This document shows positions 5,991 to 63,398 of a stretch of 64,000 nucleotides of DNA, piece after piece. A model generated the notes under the pieces. The model saw only the letters and a list, made by a program, of their open reading frames with translations, had not been told where the DNA came from and did not search any database. Source of the stretch: Lactobacillus sp. ESL0680 (GTDB lineage Bacteria; Bacillota; Bacilli; Lactobacillales; Lactobacillaceae); contig NZ_CP113945.1 of NCBI RefSeq assembly GCF_029392855.1, positions 1,488,001 through 1,552,000 on the forward strand, written 5' to 3'. The stretch's first letter is position 1. Every line of letters starts with the position of its first letter. Both the position numbers and the translations under genes were made by a program.

Positions 5991-7220
5991 TTAAGCTTGT
6001 GAAGCACCAGAAACAGCGTCTGATTCGTCTTCCTTCATTTGGTTATCCTTAGTTACAGGGTAAGGCTTAATTCTTGAAGGATCTGTGTTTGACTTCAAAT
6101 CATCAGTGGTGTAATTGAAATGTGTCAAACGTGCTTTCTTAACATCTTCAATTGTCTTGCAGCCAGTTAATTGCATATCAATTACTAATTCATCGTTCAA
6201 TTGTTTAATAACTGATTCAACACCCTTAGCACCACCAAGAGCTAATGCATAAAGGTAAGGACGGCCGATACCAACAAGGTCAGCACCTAAAGCTAAAGCC
6301 TTGAAGACATGTGAACCACGACGAACACCAGAATCAAAGATAATTGGCACACGGTGATTTACTGCCTTGGCGATTTCTGGCAACATATCAATTGTTGCAG
6401 GACCACTATCAACTTCACGGCCACCATGGTTAGTAACGTAAATACCGTCAGCACCAGCACCCATTGCTAAGTATGCATCTTCAGCACAAACTACACCCTT
6501 AACGAAGACTGGAAGACCTGACATTTCCTTAATCCGTTTAACATCATCTGGACCAATCTTTTGTGCAGATGAAGCGTACATTTGCGCAACGGTTTGACCT
6601 TCACCCTTACCGCCTTGGTAACGAGTAAAGAAGTCTAGTGGTACTGGATAAGCAAATTGAGTTCTCAAGTTAGCTTCACGATAGCCTGATACCAAAGCAT
6701 CAACAGTTAAGAAGATACCATTGTAACCAGCCTTCTTAATTGCATCAAAGACCATCTTGTTAAATTCCCAATCTTTACTTAAGTAAAGTTGGAAGAAACG
6801 TGGTGCGCCTGGAGCTGCTGCTGCAATTTCTTCAACACTCTTATTGCCATAAGTACTTGATGAGAATAATGCTCCAGCTGCTGCTGCACCCTTTTGAGTA
6901 GCAACTTCGGCATCCTTATGAGCAATTCCATGACAAGCAATAGGTGAAATCATAATTGGGGTCTTCAAATTCATCCCCATAAATTCAGTATCAGTTTGCG
7001 GATTATCCATATTAGTTAAAGCCCGCGGTACAATTTGAAAATGATTAAAAGCAGAGGTATTGTTCCGCCATGTCCACTCATTTTCTGAACCTGAGGCAAT
7101 ATAATAATATGCGCCTTCTGGCATGACTTCTTTTGCACGTTCCTCAAGCTCATCAACGTTAATCATATTAATAGCTTCGTCACGATCACTTTGGGGAAAT
7201 CCATTATAATATGCTGTCAT
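5991..7220 (-). CDS. L-lactate oxidase family FMN enzyme with a C-terminal flavinylation-like tail
   Basis: 409 residues of the FMN-dependent alpha-hydroxyacid oxidase family. Expected active-site residues are visible: Y40 in EGAYYYIASG, the catalytic pair H265/R268 in NHGGREVDSG, the phosphate-binding DSGVRRG (296-302) and GIGRP near 317. In lactobacilli such enzymes oxidise L-lactate to pyruvate, usually making hydrogen peroxide. The last ~45 residues lie beyond the barrel and end in DAVSGASQA. D401-S407 fits the D-x-x-[S/T]-G-A-[S/T] site used by ApbE to attach FMN covalently. The start at 7220 is set by AAGGAG; a longer frame to 7265 has no ribosome site. Monocistronic. A lactate monooxygenase or other hydroxyacid oxidase is possible. 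Confidence 0.85.
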   Translation of the reverse strand: MTAYYNGFPQSDRDEAINMINVDELEERAKEVMPEGAYYYIASGSENEWTWRNNTSAFNHFQIVPRALTNMDNPQTDTEFMGMNLKTPIMISPIACHGIAHKDAEVATQKGAAAAGALFSSSTYGNKSVEEIAAAAPGAPRFFQLYLSKDWEFNKMVFDAIKKAGYNGIFLTVDALVSGYREANLRTQFAYPVPLDFFTRYQGGKGEGQTVAQMYASSAQKIGPDDVKRIKEMSGLPVFVKGVVCAEDAYLAMGAGADGIYVTNHGGREVDSGPATIDMLPEIAKAVNHRVPIIFDSGVRRGSHVFKALALGADLVGIGRPYLYALALGGAKGVESVIKQLNDELVIDMQLTGCKTIEDVKKARLTHFNYTTDDLKSNTDPSRIKPYPVTKDNQMKEDESDAVSGASQA

Positions 7221-7256
7221 TTTAAAAACTCCTTTATGTAAAACTTTTACATCTCT

Positions 7257-7278
7257 ATTATACATGCAAATGCTTACA
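7257..7278 (-). promoter_or_regulatory. Lactate-oxidase promoter with cre-like CcpA site
   Basis: TATAAT on the minus strand (7262-7257) lies about 35 bases before the start codon. Just upstream, 7265-7278 reads TGTAAGCATTTGCA, 12 of 14 matches to the catabolite-response consensus TGWAANCGNTNWCA. The position suggests CcpA repression during growth on preferred sugar. Confidence 0.5.
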
Positions 7279-28123: not shown

Positions 28124-29986
28124 TTATTTGCTGGCTTTTGCAGTTTCAGCGGCATCAATTCCGGCTAACCGACCTGAAATGTACGCAAAACCTAATGTTC
28201 CACCTTCAAAGTCAACATAAGCCTTACCATACATACCAGATGCATCAGCACCAGTAACATAAAGATTAGGAACAGGTTCACCTTCTGGTGTTAAAGCGTG
28301 CATCTTTTCATCAATCGTTGCACCACCAAGTGTTCCCAAGTTACGGGCAATAAACTTAACTGCGTAGAATGGGCCATTTTCAACTGGAATCATTCTATTA
28401 GTATCAGAGAAGAATAGGTCATCTTCACCGGTCTTCTTGGCATTATTGTATTGGGCAACAGACTTCTGCAAGTTATCAGAATCAACACCCATCTTATTGG
28501 CCAATTCTTCAATAGTATCGCCAATAAAGACAACATTTGTTGACTCAAGTTGATTTAACAAAGCAGTGAAATCAGTCTTCTCATGCTCACGCTTAATGTT
28601 TTCTTCGGTATCAGTTGGGTAATTAAATTCCATGTAGAATTCACGATGGTTTTTCCATTTCCCATAATGATCTTCAATCGCAACTGTACCGCCTTCCTTG
28701 ATCTTATCCAACATCGCTTGATCAAGAACAACATATTCAGTTTGTTTTGGCTGTTCAGATAATTCGGCACCATGAACAGCAAAGTCCAAAGCATGAGTTT
28801 CACTAGCGTAACGCTGACCCCGATTATTAACGCGCAAGTTCGGGAAGTCAGCTAAAGCATTGAGTGGCATCCAACCAGGGCCAACAATCTTAGCCATTGC
28901 ACCAATATCTTCATTACTGAATGTTTGCCAGAAGTAATGCGTTGAACCATTAATATGATGAGCAGTACCAGCATCCCAAGCCATGTTCAAACCGTCACCG
29001 GTATTTTGCAAAACTTGACCTTGTGTGCTGACATCACCCAAGTATTCTTTACGCATTTCTGGATTACCACCAAAACCACCGGTAGCAATAATCACCTTTT
29101 TGGCATGTACTTCTAAAGTAGAATCATCACCTTGGGCAACAACACCAGTAACTGCACCATCTTCTTGCAACAATTTTTTAGCAGCGAAGCCAAAGTACAT
29201 CTTGCCGCCAATTGATTCGAATTTTTCAATCAGCTTGGTAATTGCCTTGGTACCACCTTCTTGGTAGCCATGCAAAGTTGCAGGCATCCCAATATGGTCA
29301 TAACTACCACCAGTACCAGCGTCAACCAACTTCATAATGGCGCCGTTTTCGTTCAGCCAGTCAACTGTCTTACCAGATTCATCAATAATTCTACGAACTA
29401 AGATTGAGTTCATATAACCTTGTGAGGCGTCCATGTACTCGTCATATAGCCACTTCTTAGAAACAACTTGGTCAGAATCCTTTTGTTGTTGACTGTCTGC
29501 AGCAAACATCCCACCAGCAAATGTACCAGCACCAAGTGGCGAAATTGTCTTCTCAAGAAGGGCAACACTTGCCCCTTCTTGTTTAGCAGCAAGTGCTGCA
29601 GCAGCACCAGCAGAGCCAGCACCCACAACAGCAACATCGACATCAATTACTTCTTTATCAGAACTAGCATTTTGCGTGCCATTTTCTTTTAAAGCAGCAA
29701 AGTCAACATCTGCCTTGGTTAAAGCATCCTTAACCCCAGCAATAATTCCCCGCGAGGTTTCAGAAGCTCCCGAAACAACATCAACATCAACCGATTGATT
29801 TTTCACAATTTTGTCGGCCATTTTCTTAAAGGCATTATCTGCTAAACTATCTGGAGCAAAATTATTCAGTGCTTTAACACTATTAATCTTGTCTTCATTA
29901 ACGTCGACTTCAACATTAATGATACTTTCCTTACCTTGACCTGAGCCGGTATACTTGCCCGGTTTTGTCGTGATTTTTTGCGTCAT
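28124..29986 (-). CDS. Flavoprotein reductase with N-terminal FMN-binding (flavinylation) domain
   Basis: 620 residues. An FMN_bind domain (about 10-90) contains D69-V-V-S-G-A-S75, the site where ApbE attaches FMN through a phosphoester bond. It is joined to a full FAD_binding_2 reductase (VAVVGAGSAGAAAALAA near 120; ATGGFGGNPEMRKEYLG; LYVTGADASGMYGKAYVDFEGG). Soluble fumarate, urocanate and acrylate reductases share this layout, with electrons passing from FMN to FAD. The active-site segment reads ASETHALDFAVHGAE instead of the usual TRD, and the C-terminal HGANRLGGN motif is absent, so the acceptor differs from fumarate. No signal peptide, so cytoplasmic. Third gene in its operon. Confidence 0.85.
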   Translation of the reverse strand: MTQKITTKPGKYTGSGQGKESIINVEVDVNEDKINSVKALNNFAPDSLADNAFKKMADKIVKNQSVDVDVVSGASETSRGIIAGVKDALTKADVDFAALKENGTQNASSDKEVIDVDVAVVGAGSAGAAAALAAKQEGASVALLEKTISPLGAGTFAGGMFAADSQQQKDSDQVVSKKWLYDEYMDASQGYMNSILVRRIIDESGKTVDWLNENGAIMKLVDAGTGGSYDHIGMPATLHGYQEGGTKAITKLIEKFESIGGKMYFGFAAKKLLQEDGAVTGVVAQGDDSTLEVHAKKVIIATGGFGGNPEMRKEYLGDVSTQGQVLQNTGDGLNMAWDAGTAHHINGSTHYFWQTFSNEDIGAMAKIVGPGWMPLNALADFPNLRVNNRGQRYASETHALDFAVHGAELSEQPKQTEYVVLDQAMLDKIKEGGTVAIEDHYGKWKNHREFYMEFNYPTDTEENIKREHEKTDFTALLNQLESTNVVFIGDTIEELANKMGVDSDNLQKSVAQYNNAKKTGEDDLFFSDTNRMIPVENGPFYAVKFIARNLGTLGGATIDEKMHALTPEGEPVPNLYVTGADASGMYGKAYVDFEGGTLGFAYISGRLAGIDAAETAKASK

Positions 29987-48596: not shown

Positions 48597-48704
48597 AAAG
48601 TATGTGTCCTCCTTAATCGATACCTTTATTGTATCGGGCAAACCCTAACTAAACAATACTTTCCATTTAATTGTAGTCAAAAAGTAATATTGTTCACTAA
48701 TTTA

Positions 48705-62648: not shown

Positions 62649-63398
62649 TTAATTTTCAGAAGCACCACTAGCTGTATCAGCTGCAGGTTCTGGTTTTTCA
62701 GCTTGTTCTTGTGCAGCTTCTGCCTTAGTAGAGGCACCAGTTGCGGCATCAGGATTAGAATTGCGTCTATAAGTTGCTCCTGTCGTCGCGTCCTCATCAA
62801 CTACCAGCTTCTGACCAGTAGTTTCACAGAAGTACTTAACTAACGGGTACAAGTCCTGAACCCATTCATAAATACCGGCGTAATTGCCTTCATCATCAAC
62901 TACCCGCTTATAATAGTGCAGCACTAGTTCCTTCAAGTTGCCGGTAGGAACTGGCATATAAACGTCATCATGACCAGCTTGTCTTGTGCGCAAAGCATGA
63001 ACAACCTTCTTGGTTTCCTGAATTACATCACCAACATGTGGGTGGACATCATTCATCGTGTTGCCGACTTGTTCAGGAACCCGCTTAGCCTTCATCTTGG
63101 CAATCGGGTCAACTGGCCGGTTGTACCACAAGAATTGGTTATTCTCATCAACAAACGATAACTCACCAATCGTGTCGCGCAGCATCCAGTTAATTTGATT
63201 AACCGTTAACAAGCCACTGTCGAGCTTAACGTAATCATCGCCTTCAGCCGCGTGAACCTTCTCTGCAGCTTGGTCTAACCAGTCTGGGTCTTCTTTATTA
63301 ATTCCACTAACTGTATAGCGGCCCTTGCCCTTAGCATCAAAGTCTTCTTGCATGTATTCATCGGGGTTCATATTCTTTAACCATTGCGGTTCTGCCAT
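62649..63398 (-). CDS. PAS-domain protein with three C-terminal flavinylation-like motifs
   Basis: 249 residues, soluble. An N-terminal part rich in acidic residues (1-70) precedes a PAS domain (about 72-195; IGELSFVDENNQFLWYNR, PEQVGNTMNDVHPHVG, GIYEWVQDLYPLV) of the PAS_10/DUF438-like type, whose conserved His may bind heme or a flavin. After that comes a disordered Ala/Glu-rich tail with D203-A-T-T-G-A-T, D217-A-A-T-G-A-S and D241-T-A-S-G-A-S. Each fits the ApbE flavinylation motif D-x-x-[S/T]-G-A-[S/T]. It may be a multi-flavin redox carrier or buffer. AGGAG precedes the ATG; it is monocistronic, divergent from a peptidase gene. Confidence 0.7.
   Translation of the reverse strand: MAEPQWLKNMNPDEYMQEDFDAKGKGRYTVSGINKEDPDWLDQAAEKVHAAEGDDYVKLDSGLLTVNQINWMLRDTIGELSFVDENNQFLWYNRPVDPIAKMKAKRVPEQVGNTMNDVHPHVGDVIQETKKVVHALRTRQAGHDDVYMPVPTGNLKELVLHYYKRVVDDEGNYAGIYEWVQDLYPLVKYFCETTGQKLVVDEDATTGATYRRNSNPDAATGASTKAEAAQEQAEKPEPAADTASGASEN
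62658..62792 (-). repeat. Three ApbE-type motif repeats in the PAS protein tail
   Basis: Motif positions: 62772-62792 (DATTGAT), 62730-62750 (DAATGAS) and 62658-62678 (DTASGAS), separated by Ala/Glu/Pro-rich linkers. Confidence 0.75.

Follow-up and report, generated by a model that had tools for sequence, protein, structure and literature searches.

The closest described counterpart of the protein studied here is LjPAS of Lactobacillus johnsonii N6.2, a 28-kDa PAS protein with an effect on FRedA/B, a heterodimeric NADH:FMN reductase (Valladares 2015, PMC4500961). FRedA/B was reported there as an NADH-specific FMN reductase that makes H2O2 (Km of 20 uM for FMN), binds FMN weakly (KD 1.96 uM), reduces none of the quinones tested, and is central to H2O2 production of L. 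johnsonii, which like its relatives is described as being without quinone synthesis of its own (PMC4500961). Co-expression of LjPAS kept FRedA soluble; in vitro, LjPAS made the active heterodimer assemble more slowly, and FRedA/B already formed with FMN was not significantly affected by it (PMC4500961). The LjPAS transcript responds to aeration, for which the abstract and discussion of that paper give repression at low oxygen and its results a drop under high oxygen, and in other lactobacilli LjPAS was noted to be fused to an FMN reductase (PMC4500961). The authors saw in LjPAS a regulator whose PAS domain is a sensor, and a word search of the main text of PMC4500961 gave no instance of "flavinyl", "covalent" or "ApbE".

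The flavin transferase ApbE attaches FMN to a seven-residue motif, D-x-x-[S/T]-G-A-[S/T], which is the minimal signal, suffices as a tag, works best at a terminus, and is a poorer acceptor with Ser than with Thr (review PMC12052999). In Lactococcus, ApbE-linked FMN_red proteins carry one to two such motifs in an unstructured tail of the FMN_red protein itself, and these tails were flavinylated upon co-expression with their apbE, whereas alanine mutants were not (Huang 2024, PMC11334425); PAS is unmentioned in section 6 of that article. Multi-flavinylated FMN-bind proteins, with several predicted covalent FMN per chain, have been proposed as electron carriers, and consist of several FMN-binding domains outside the cytosol (Meheust 2021, PMC8238504). 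A cytosolic ApbE acting on a soluble enzyme is exemplified by the soluble fumarate reductase of Klebsiella (review PMC12052999). Among the results listed by searches of open-licence literature, neither an oxidase of lactic acid bacteria with an ApbE-attached flavin nor a flavinylated PAS protein was found. The motif of the Klebsiella enzyme lies in a folded FMN_bind domain, unlike the C-terminal tail described below.

Results

An LjPAS-type protein with three ApbE motifs in its tail

The window analysed is a stretch of 64,000 nucleotides from the genome of Lactobacillus sp. ESL0680, a single contig of 1.709 Mb. On its minus strand, an ATG-started frame at 62649..63398 encodes a protein of 249 residues (hereafter the window protein), which consists of an N-terminal region, a PAS_10 domain (PF13596; residues 69-183, 62850..63194, minus strand; Pfam, E 2.6e-21), and a tail with three copies of the ApbE substrate motif. 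The three copies, exactly where the first-pass annotation had placed them, are DATTGAT (residues 203-209, 62772..62792), DAATGAS (residues 217-223, 62730..62750) and DTASGAS (residues 241-247, 62658..62678, ending two residues before the C-terminus), all on the minus strand, and their predicted FMN acceptors are T209, S223 and S247, respectively. Among 300,000 shuffles of residues 200-249, one motif arose in 715 and two or more in none; these shuffles, which bear out the earlier judgement that such a cluster is unlikely by chance, together with the conservation in homologs rule out a chance origin. A six-frame search of the window, limited to stretches of 100 codons or more, gave five copies of the motif: the three of this tail, one inside a fumarate-reductase-like gene, and one that ends two residues short of the C-terminus of a lactate-oxidase-like gene product.

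In an AlphaFold model from a 40-row alignment, 191 of the 249 residues have a pLDDT of at least 70, and residues 205-249 fall below 50; the motif-bearing tail is thus predicted to be disordered, in agreement with the previous description of a flexible tail behind a PAS domain. The fold matches PAS domains generally by Foldseek, the best match being 2QKP (C-terminal domain of SMU_1151c from S. mutans), which is also the best sequence match. Two families were found at E <=1, of which only PAS_10 passes the cut-off, and an FMN_red domain joined to the tail in one chain is thus not seen in the window protein. Pfam gave no FMN_bind match, single or repeated, NCBIfam has no family for the protein, and no signal peptide is apparent by eye. 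The possibility that the motifs are part of a folded FMN_bind domain was rejected on the lack of an FMN_bind match and the predicted disorder of the tail. The window protein differs in these respects from the extracytosolic proteins with several FMN-binding domains (Meheust 2021, PMC8238504). Downstream follow two genes with matches to DUF3290 and YetF/DUF421, and upstream a divergent gene encodes an alpha/beta hydrolase; these neighbours were rejected as partners because they have no tie to flavin chemistry.

The window protein is 66% identical to its homolog in L. johnsonii ATCC 33200 (L094). The published LjPAS primers encode MAEPKWL and a C-terminal SGASEY, which are the ends of this homolog (L009 and L094, on the same contig; PMC4500961). 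The likeness extends to size (about 245-250 residues, about 28 kDa), to the PAS_10 domain, and to the FMN_red gene pair in its own genome. Judged by sequence, the window protein is the ortholog of LjPAS in its stand-alone Lactobacillus form. The first-pass annotation had known of no such arrangement in Lactobacillus; this has to be corrected, the link of LjPAS to FRedA/B having been published in 2015 (PMC4500961) and the flavinylation of tailed Lactococcus FMN_red proteins in 2024 (PMC11334425).

Conservation of the motifs among homologs

The best 80 of 408 homologs were kept, and 77 of these 80 carry one to five strict motifs. The three exceptions are a short frame (L100), a protein in which the motif is absent (L118), and one with three DxxSSAS sequences whose gene adjoins ApbE (L121). 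Conservation in orthologs, on which the earlier interpretation had been made to depend, is thus found, for the number of the motifs more than for their spacing. D203 and A208 do not vary in the 40-row alignment, G207 is nearly invariant (at least 90%), and D217, A222, S223, D241, A246 and S247 are each conserved at 90% or more. The glycines of the second and third motifs, G221 and G245, stay below 90%, and the acceptor residue is Ser rather than Thr at two of the three sites; both are counted against the reading of the protein as a flavin carrier.

Judged by this protein, the genome has its nearest named relatives in Lactobacillus sp. ESL0701 (94% identity) and ESL0679 (92%), ESL strains being presumably of bee origin. 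Two Lactobacillus-like copies, 75-76% identical to the window protein, stand in records labelled as an Alkalibaculum bacchi MAG (L078) and Faecalicatena absiana (L098), which are likely to be wrongly labelled or of mixed assembly. One genome encodes a further PAS_10 protein, shorter at 179 residues, that also ends in a motif (DVVSGASKK; L196, G338:C1, ending 1576934), and short PAS paralogs are present in other Lactobacillus genomes too.

Linkage to apbE and to the FRedA/FRedB genes

Absence of apbE from the genome was named by the first-pass annotation as grounds for giving up its proposal; the search gave a sole copy (C1:198901-199689; PF02424, E 5.3e-68), whose product (starting MIDDLALEQ) has no signal peptide apparent by eye. 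Just upstream lie two FMN_red genes, the FRedA/FRedB pair (C1:196869-197405 and 197420-197965). A gene for a phosphatase-like protein (L001:653-1444; tyrosine-phosphatase-like by eye) separates this pair from apbE, and all four genes share one strand.

A FRedA homolog was found in 73 of 75 Lactobacillus genomes, and in 70 of these 73 its start is no more than 3.5 kb away from an ApbE match; the exceptions are two genomes with ApbE elsewhere on the contig (G327 and G336) and an incomplete genome in which ApbE was not found (G337). In a sample of 301 Lactobacillaceae genomes, an ApbE match of any type (E <=0.001) is present in 101 of the 102 genomes with a strong PAS match (E <1e-30) vs 80 of the 199 without. 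Neither this nor the other co-occurrence counts are corrected for kinship, and related genomes are not independent. The single strong-PAS genome of this sample without an ApbE match (G261) is 76% complete.

Fusion of FMN_red and PAS domains across Lactobacillales

An FMN_red-type domain precedes PAS in one chain of 400-490 residues in 35 of the best 80 homologs (L101-L137 except L115 and L130). One of the fusions (L108) is labelled uncultured Lactobacillus, and the other 34 belong to other genera. At E <=1e-40, a profile built from the fusions has matches in 159 of 295 Lactobacillales genomes, a total in which matches to FMN_red or to PAS by itself are counted too. The tails were read at 90 loci of this profile, 30 returned by the search (nine of these being Lactobacillaceae loci) and 60 others taken for the most part in the order of the list, and at least one strict motif was found in 71. 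The variant D-x-x-[S/T]-S-A-[S/T], with Ser in place of the motif Gly, is the only form in 17 of the 90 (L224, L232-L235, L237, L240-L242, L244, L245, L255, L263-L266 and L283), and neither form is present in two (L216 and L260). The genomes of all these 19 loci hold ApbE, which is counted against the flavin-carrier reading; for tails with Ser variants alone, either ApbE accepts them by altered specificity or the sites are fading.

Outside Lactobacillaceae, 81 of the tails were read, and ApbE was found in all of the 80 genomes tested for it (G398 being dropped). In 68 of the 80, fusion and ApbE are no more than 2.5 kb apart, in one case (G519) by virtue of an ApbE fragment at a contig edge. 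A structural model of the fusion gave a pTM of 0.48, the position of PAS relative to FMN_red being placed without confidence. The Lactococcus proteins of Huang 2024 (PMC11334425) resemble this family in being ApbE-linked Firmicutes proteins with an unstructured motif tail on FMN_red. They differ, with one to two motifs, from the separate PAS protein with three motifs and from the FMN_red-PAS fusions with mostly one to five; this separation follows their description, and some may belong to the fusion family.

As side observations, the open frame of L283 (G581:C104) runs to 717 residues with a second PAS-like stretch after the first tail, and FMN_red-like domains of about 190 residues occur in open frames of about 800 residues (G427:C47:7413-7994, G003:C1:832195-832773, and others).

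The same tail on other redox enzymes

Several tailed redox proteins, the window protein among them, are encoded in this genome. A second one in the window is a lactate-oxidase-like protein (L-lactate oxidase type, FMN_dh; 424 residues, 5991..7265, minus strand), which ends in DAVSGASQA with the motif DAVSGAS at 6000..6020 (minus strand). The fumarate-reductase-like protein at 28124..29986 (minus strand; family assigned by eye), a conventional candidate substrate of ApbE, holds an internal DVVSGAS of FMN_bind type, also judged by eye, at 29762-29782 (minus strand).

A motif scan of the whole genome gave 23 matches vs six in a backward control. Redox enzymes with the motif at their very end are a fumarate-reductase-like protein, a multicopper oxidase, the lactate-oxidase-like protein and a pyruvate oxidase, and a second pyruvate oxidase has a motif near its end followed by a terminal DTTSSAS; the C-terminal or near-terminal loci other than that of the lactate oxidase are at positions 48607, 1459546, 1698165 and 1700330 of the contig (G000:C1; L033, L045, L053 and L054). 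Other matches to the pattern fall in FtsH-, signal peptidase- and primase-like genes (by eye) or lie in no frame of 60 codons, and were set aside.

For a wider survey the terminal pattern D-x-x-[S/T]-G-A-[S/T]-x-x-TAA was used, which detects a tail solely where the motif is followed by exactly two residues and then a TAA stop, and which is blind to the Ser variant. In 75 Lactobacillus genomes it gave 238 matches vs 18 in the backward control, with at least one match in 74. A total of 40 matches from 10 genomes, hand-picked and not random, were inspected, and 39 of them end an open frame of more than 60 codons. The fortieth (L191) lies antisense inside a large frame resembling leucyl-tRNA synthetase and was rejected. 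By Pfam, the 39 tailed proteins are 14 FAD_binding_2 proteins, seven FMN_dh proteins, seven thiamine-diphosphate enzymes of pyruvate oxidase type, six PAS_10 proteins, four multicopper oxidases and one protein of old-yellow-enzyme type, and FMN_bind is matched in 13 of the 39. Alignment to the listed solved enzymes stops by residue 573 of 604 in a pyruvate oxidase (L193), by 385 of 424 in the lactate-oxidase-like protein of the window, and by 503 of 525 in a multicopper oxidase (L197). By these alignments, the tails of pyruvate oxidases, lactate oxidases and multicopper oxidases are add-ons to the known enzymes.

The single Lactobacillus genome without a match to the terminal pattern (G334, about 1.5 Mb) has a FRedA match limited to residues 59-182 and the weakest best ApbE score among the 72 genomes having one, and tail, FRedA and ApbE may be decaying there together as a module.

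Outside Lactobacillaceae, in-frame matches to the terminal pattern are mostly the fusion itself (by eye, uncounted), and the extension of the tail to many enzymes thus seems to be a trait of Lactobacillus, a few candidate cases elsewhere aside, for example in G427 and G524. Among non-Lactobacillus genomes of the family, those with ApbE gave at least 52 in-frame tail matches in at least 38 of 166, fusion tails included, and those without ApbE at least seven in at least seven of 120, but the comparison is a weak one. Seven identical strings in G248 are represented in it by one, which fails the filter. One match among the genomes without ApbE, that in G261, is by position a real fusion tail.

Discussion

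These observations altogether point to the window protein being, probably, a stand-alone LjPAS that serves as the third component of the FRedA/FRedB (Nfr) system, with FMN loaded on its tail by ApbE as the electron acceptor. Cytosolic ApbE, encoded beside FRedA/B, would attach FMN by phosphoester bonds to T209, S223 and S247, and the PAS domain would dock the tail on FRedA/B next to the reductase, an arrangement that appears in covalent form in the FMN_red-PAS fusions of many other genera. FRedA/B oxidises NADH and reduces FMN, as shown by others for L. johnsonii, and its physiological FMN acceptors would be the tethered flavins of the tail rather than free FMN. Once reduced, the tail flavins might pass their electrons on, either to O2 with formation of H2O2 or to further redox proteins, of which some are tailed; this last step is the least certain. 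We read the whole as a cytosolic set of FMN tails built by ApbE, in which the PAS protein is an NADH-fed multi-FMN carrier. LjPAS itself is known; what is new, as far as literature searches show, is its apparent role as a multi-FMN partner of FRedA/B. The first-pass annotation, which had proposed a new kind of redox carrier or sensor, is borne out in part, apbE and the conserved motifs being present, and is to be corrected in part, since kin of the protein were already known and it does not stand alone in its genome.

The LjPAS examined in 2015 was produced in E. coli, and the plasmids listed are without apbE (PMC4500961), so that this preparation probably lacked FMN on its tail. Its null effect on assembled FRedA/B neither supports nor excludes a carrier role.

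The protein could instead act as a redox sensor, in which the protein with its flavinylated tail serves the regulation of FRedA/B rather than the bulk carriage of electrons, holding FRedB apart until the redox state of the flavin or of PAS is changed. PAS domains are usually sensory. The slowed FRedA/B assembly and the aeration-responsive transcript (PMC4500961) also agree with a sensor. Conserved multiple motifs and fusion to FMN_red in many genera, however, fit a stoichiometric acceptor better than a switch, and the same tails are borne by catalytic enzymes without PAS, which makes a sensor unlikely. Somewhat less probable still is that FRed, PAS or the tailed enzyme takes up the tail FMN in a flavin pocket as its own cofactor, which is thereby kept from being lost, as proposed for FMN_red and Flavodoxin_4 substrates (Huang 2024, PMC11334425); the weak binding of FMN by FRedA/B (PMC4500961) would give such tethering a use. 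A single pocket is too few, however, for a tail that has three or more sites, and the tail is also found on proteins where this explanation fits poorly: to our knowledge multicopper oxidases have no flavin pocket, and the cofactor of pyruvate oxidase is FAD. That the motifs are unmodified, the acidic Ala/Glu-rich tail being a solubility or docking element which conserves DxxSGAS by accident, might be argued from the Ser-for-Gly variants common in some families, but is very improbable, since the motif is exactly the minimal ApbE signal (PMC12052999), is genomically linked to ApbE, and was shown to be modified in Lactococcus FMN_red tails (PMC11334425).

The shared tail on several Lactobacillus redox enzymes suggests an unrecognised system of intracellular electron wiring. 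In its fullest form, which we put forward tentatively as less probable than the carrier role itself, one cytosolic ApbE would load the C-terminal tails of LjPAS, of donors and of acceptors with FMN, and electrons would hop from tail to tail in the cytoplasm. The donors would be NADH-fed LjPAS and the pyruvate and lactate oxidases, and the acceptors would be fumarate-reductase-like enzymes, old yellow enzyme and multicopper oxidase, the last reducing O2 to water. Multicopper oxidase is the most telling case for such a network, because its flavin tail is, as far as known, not explicable as a flavin cofactor of its own.

LjPAS is thus recast from a regulator to a probable multi-flavin carrier, and the FMN reductase on which L. 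johnsonii relies for making H2O2 gains in it a candidate for its acceptor in the cell. The more important find may prove to be the tailed oxidases. The prediction follows that pyruvate oxidase, lactate oxidase and multicopper oxidase of Lactobacillus carry extra covalent FMN, which would escape recombinant work in E. coli without cytosolic ApbE. If electrons are indeed exchanged between tails, Lactobacillus would possess a soluble, respiratory-like wiring made by one post-translational modification.
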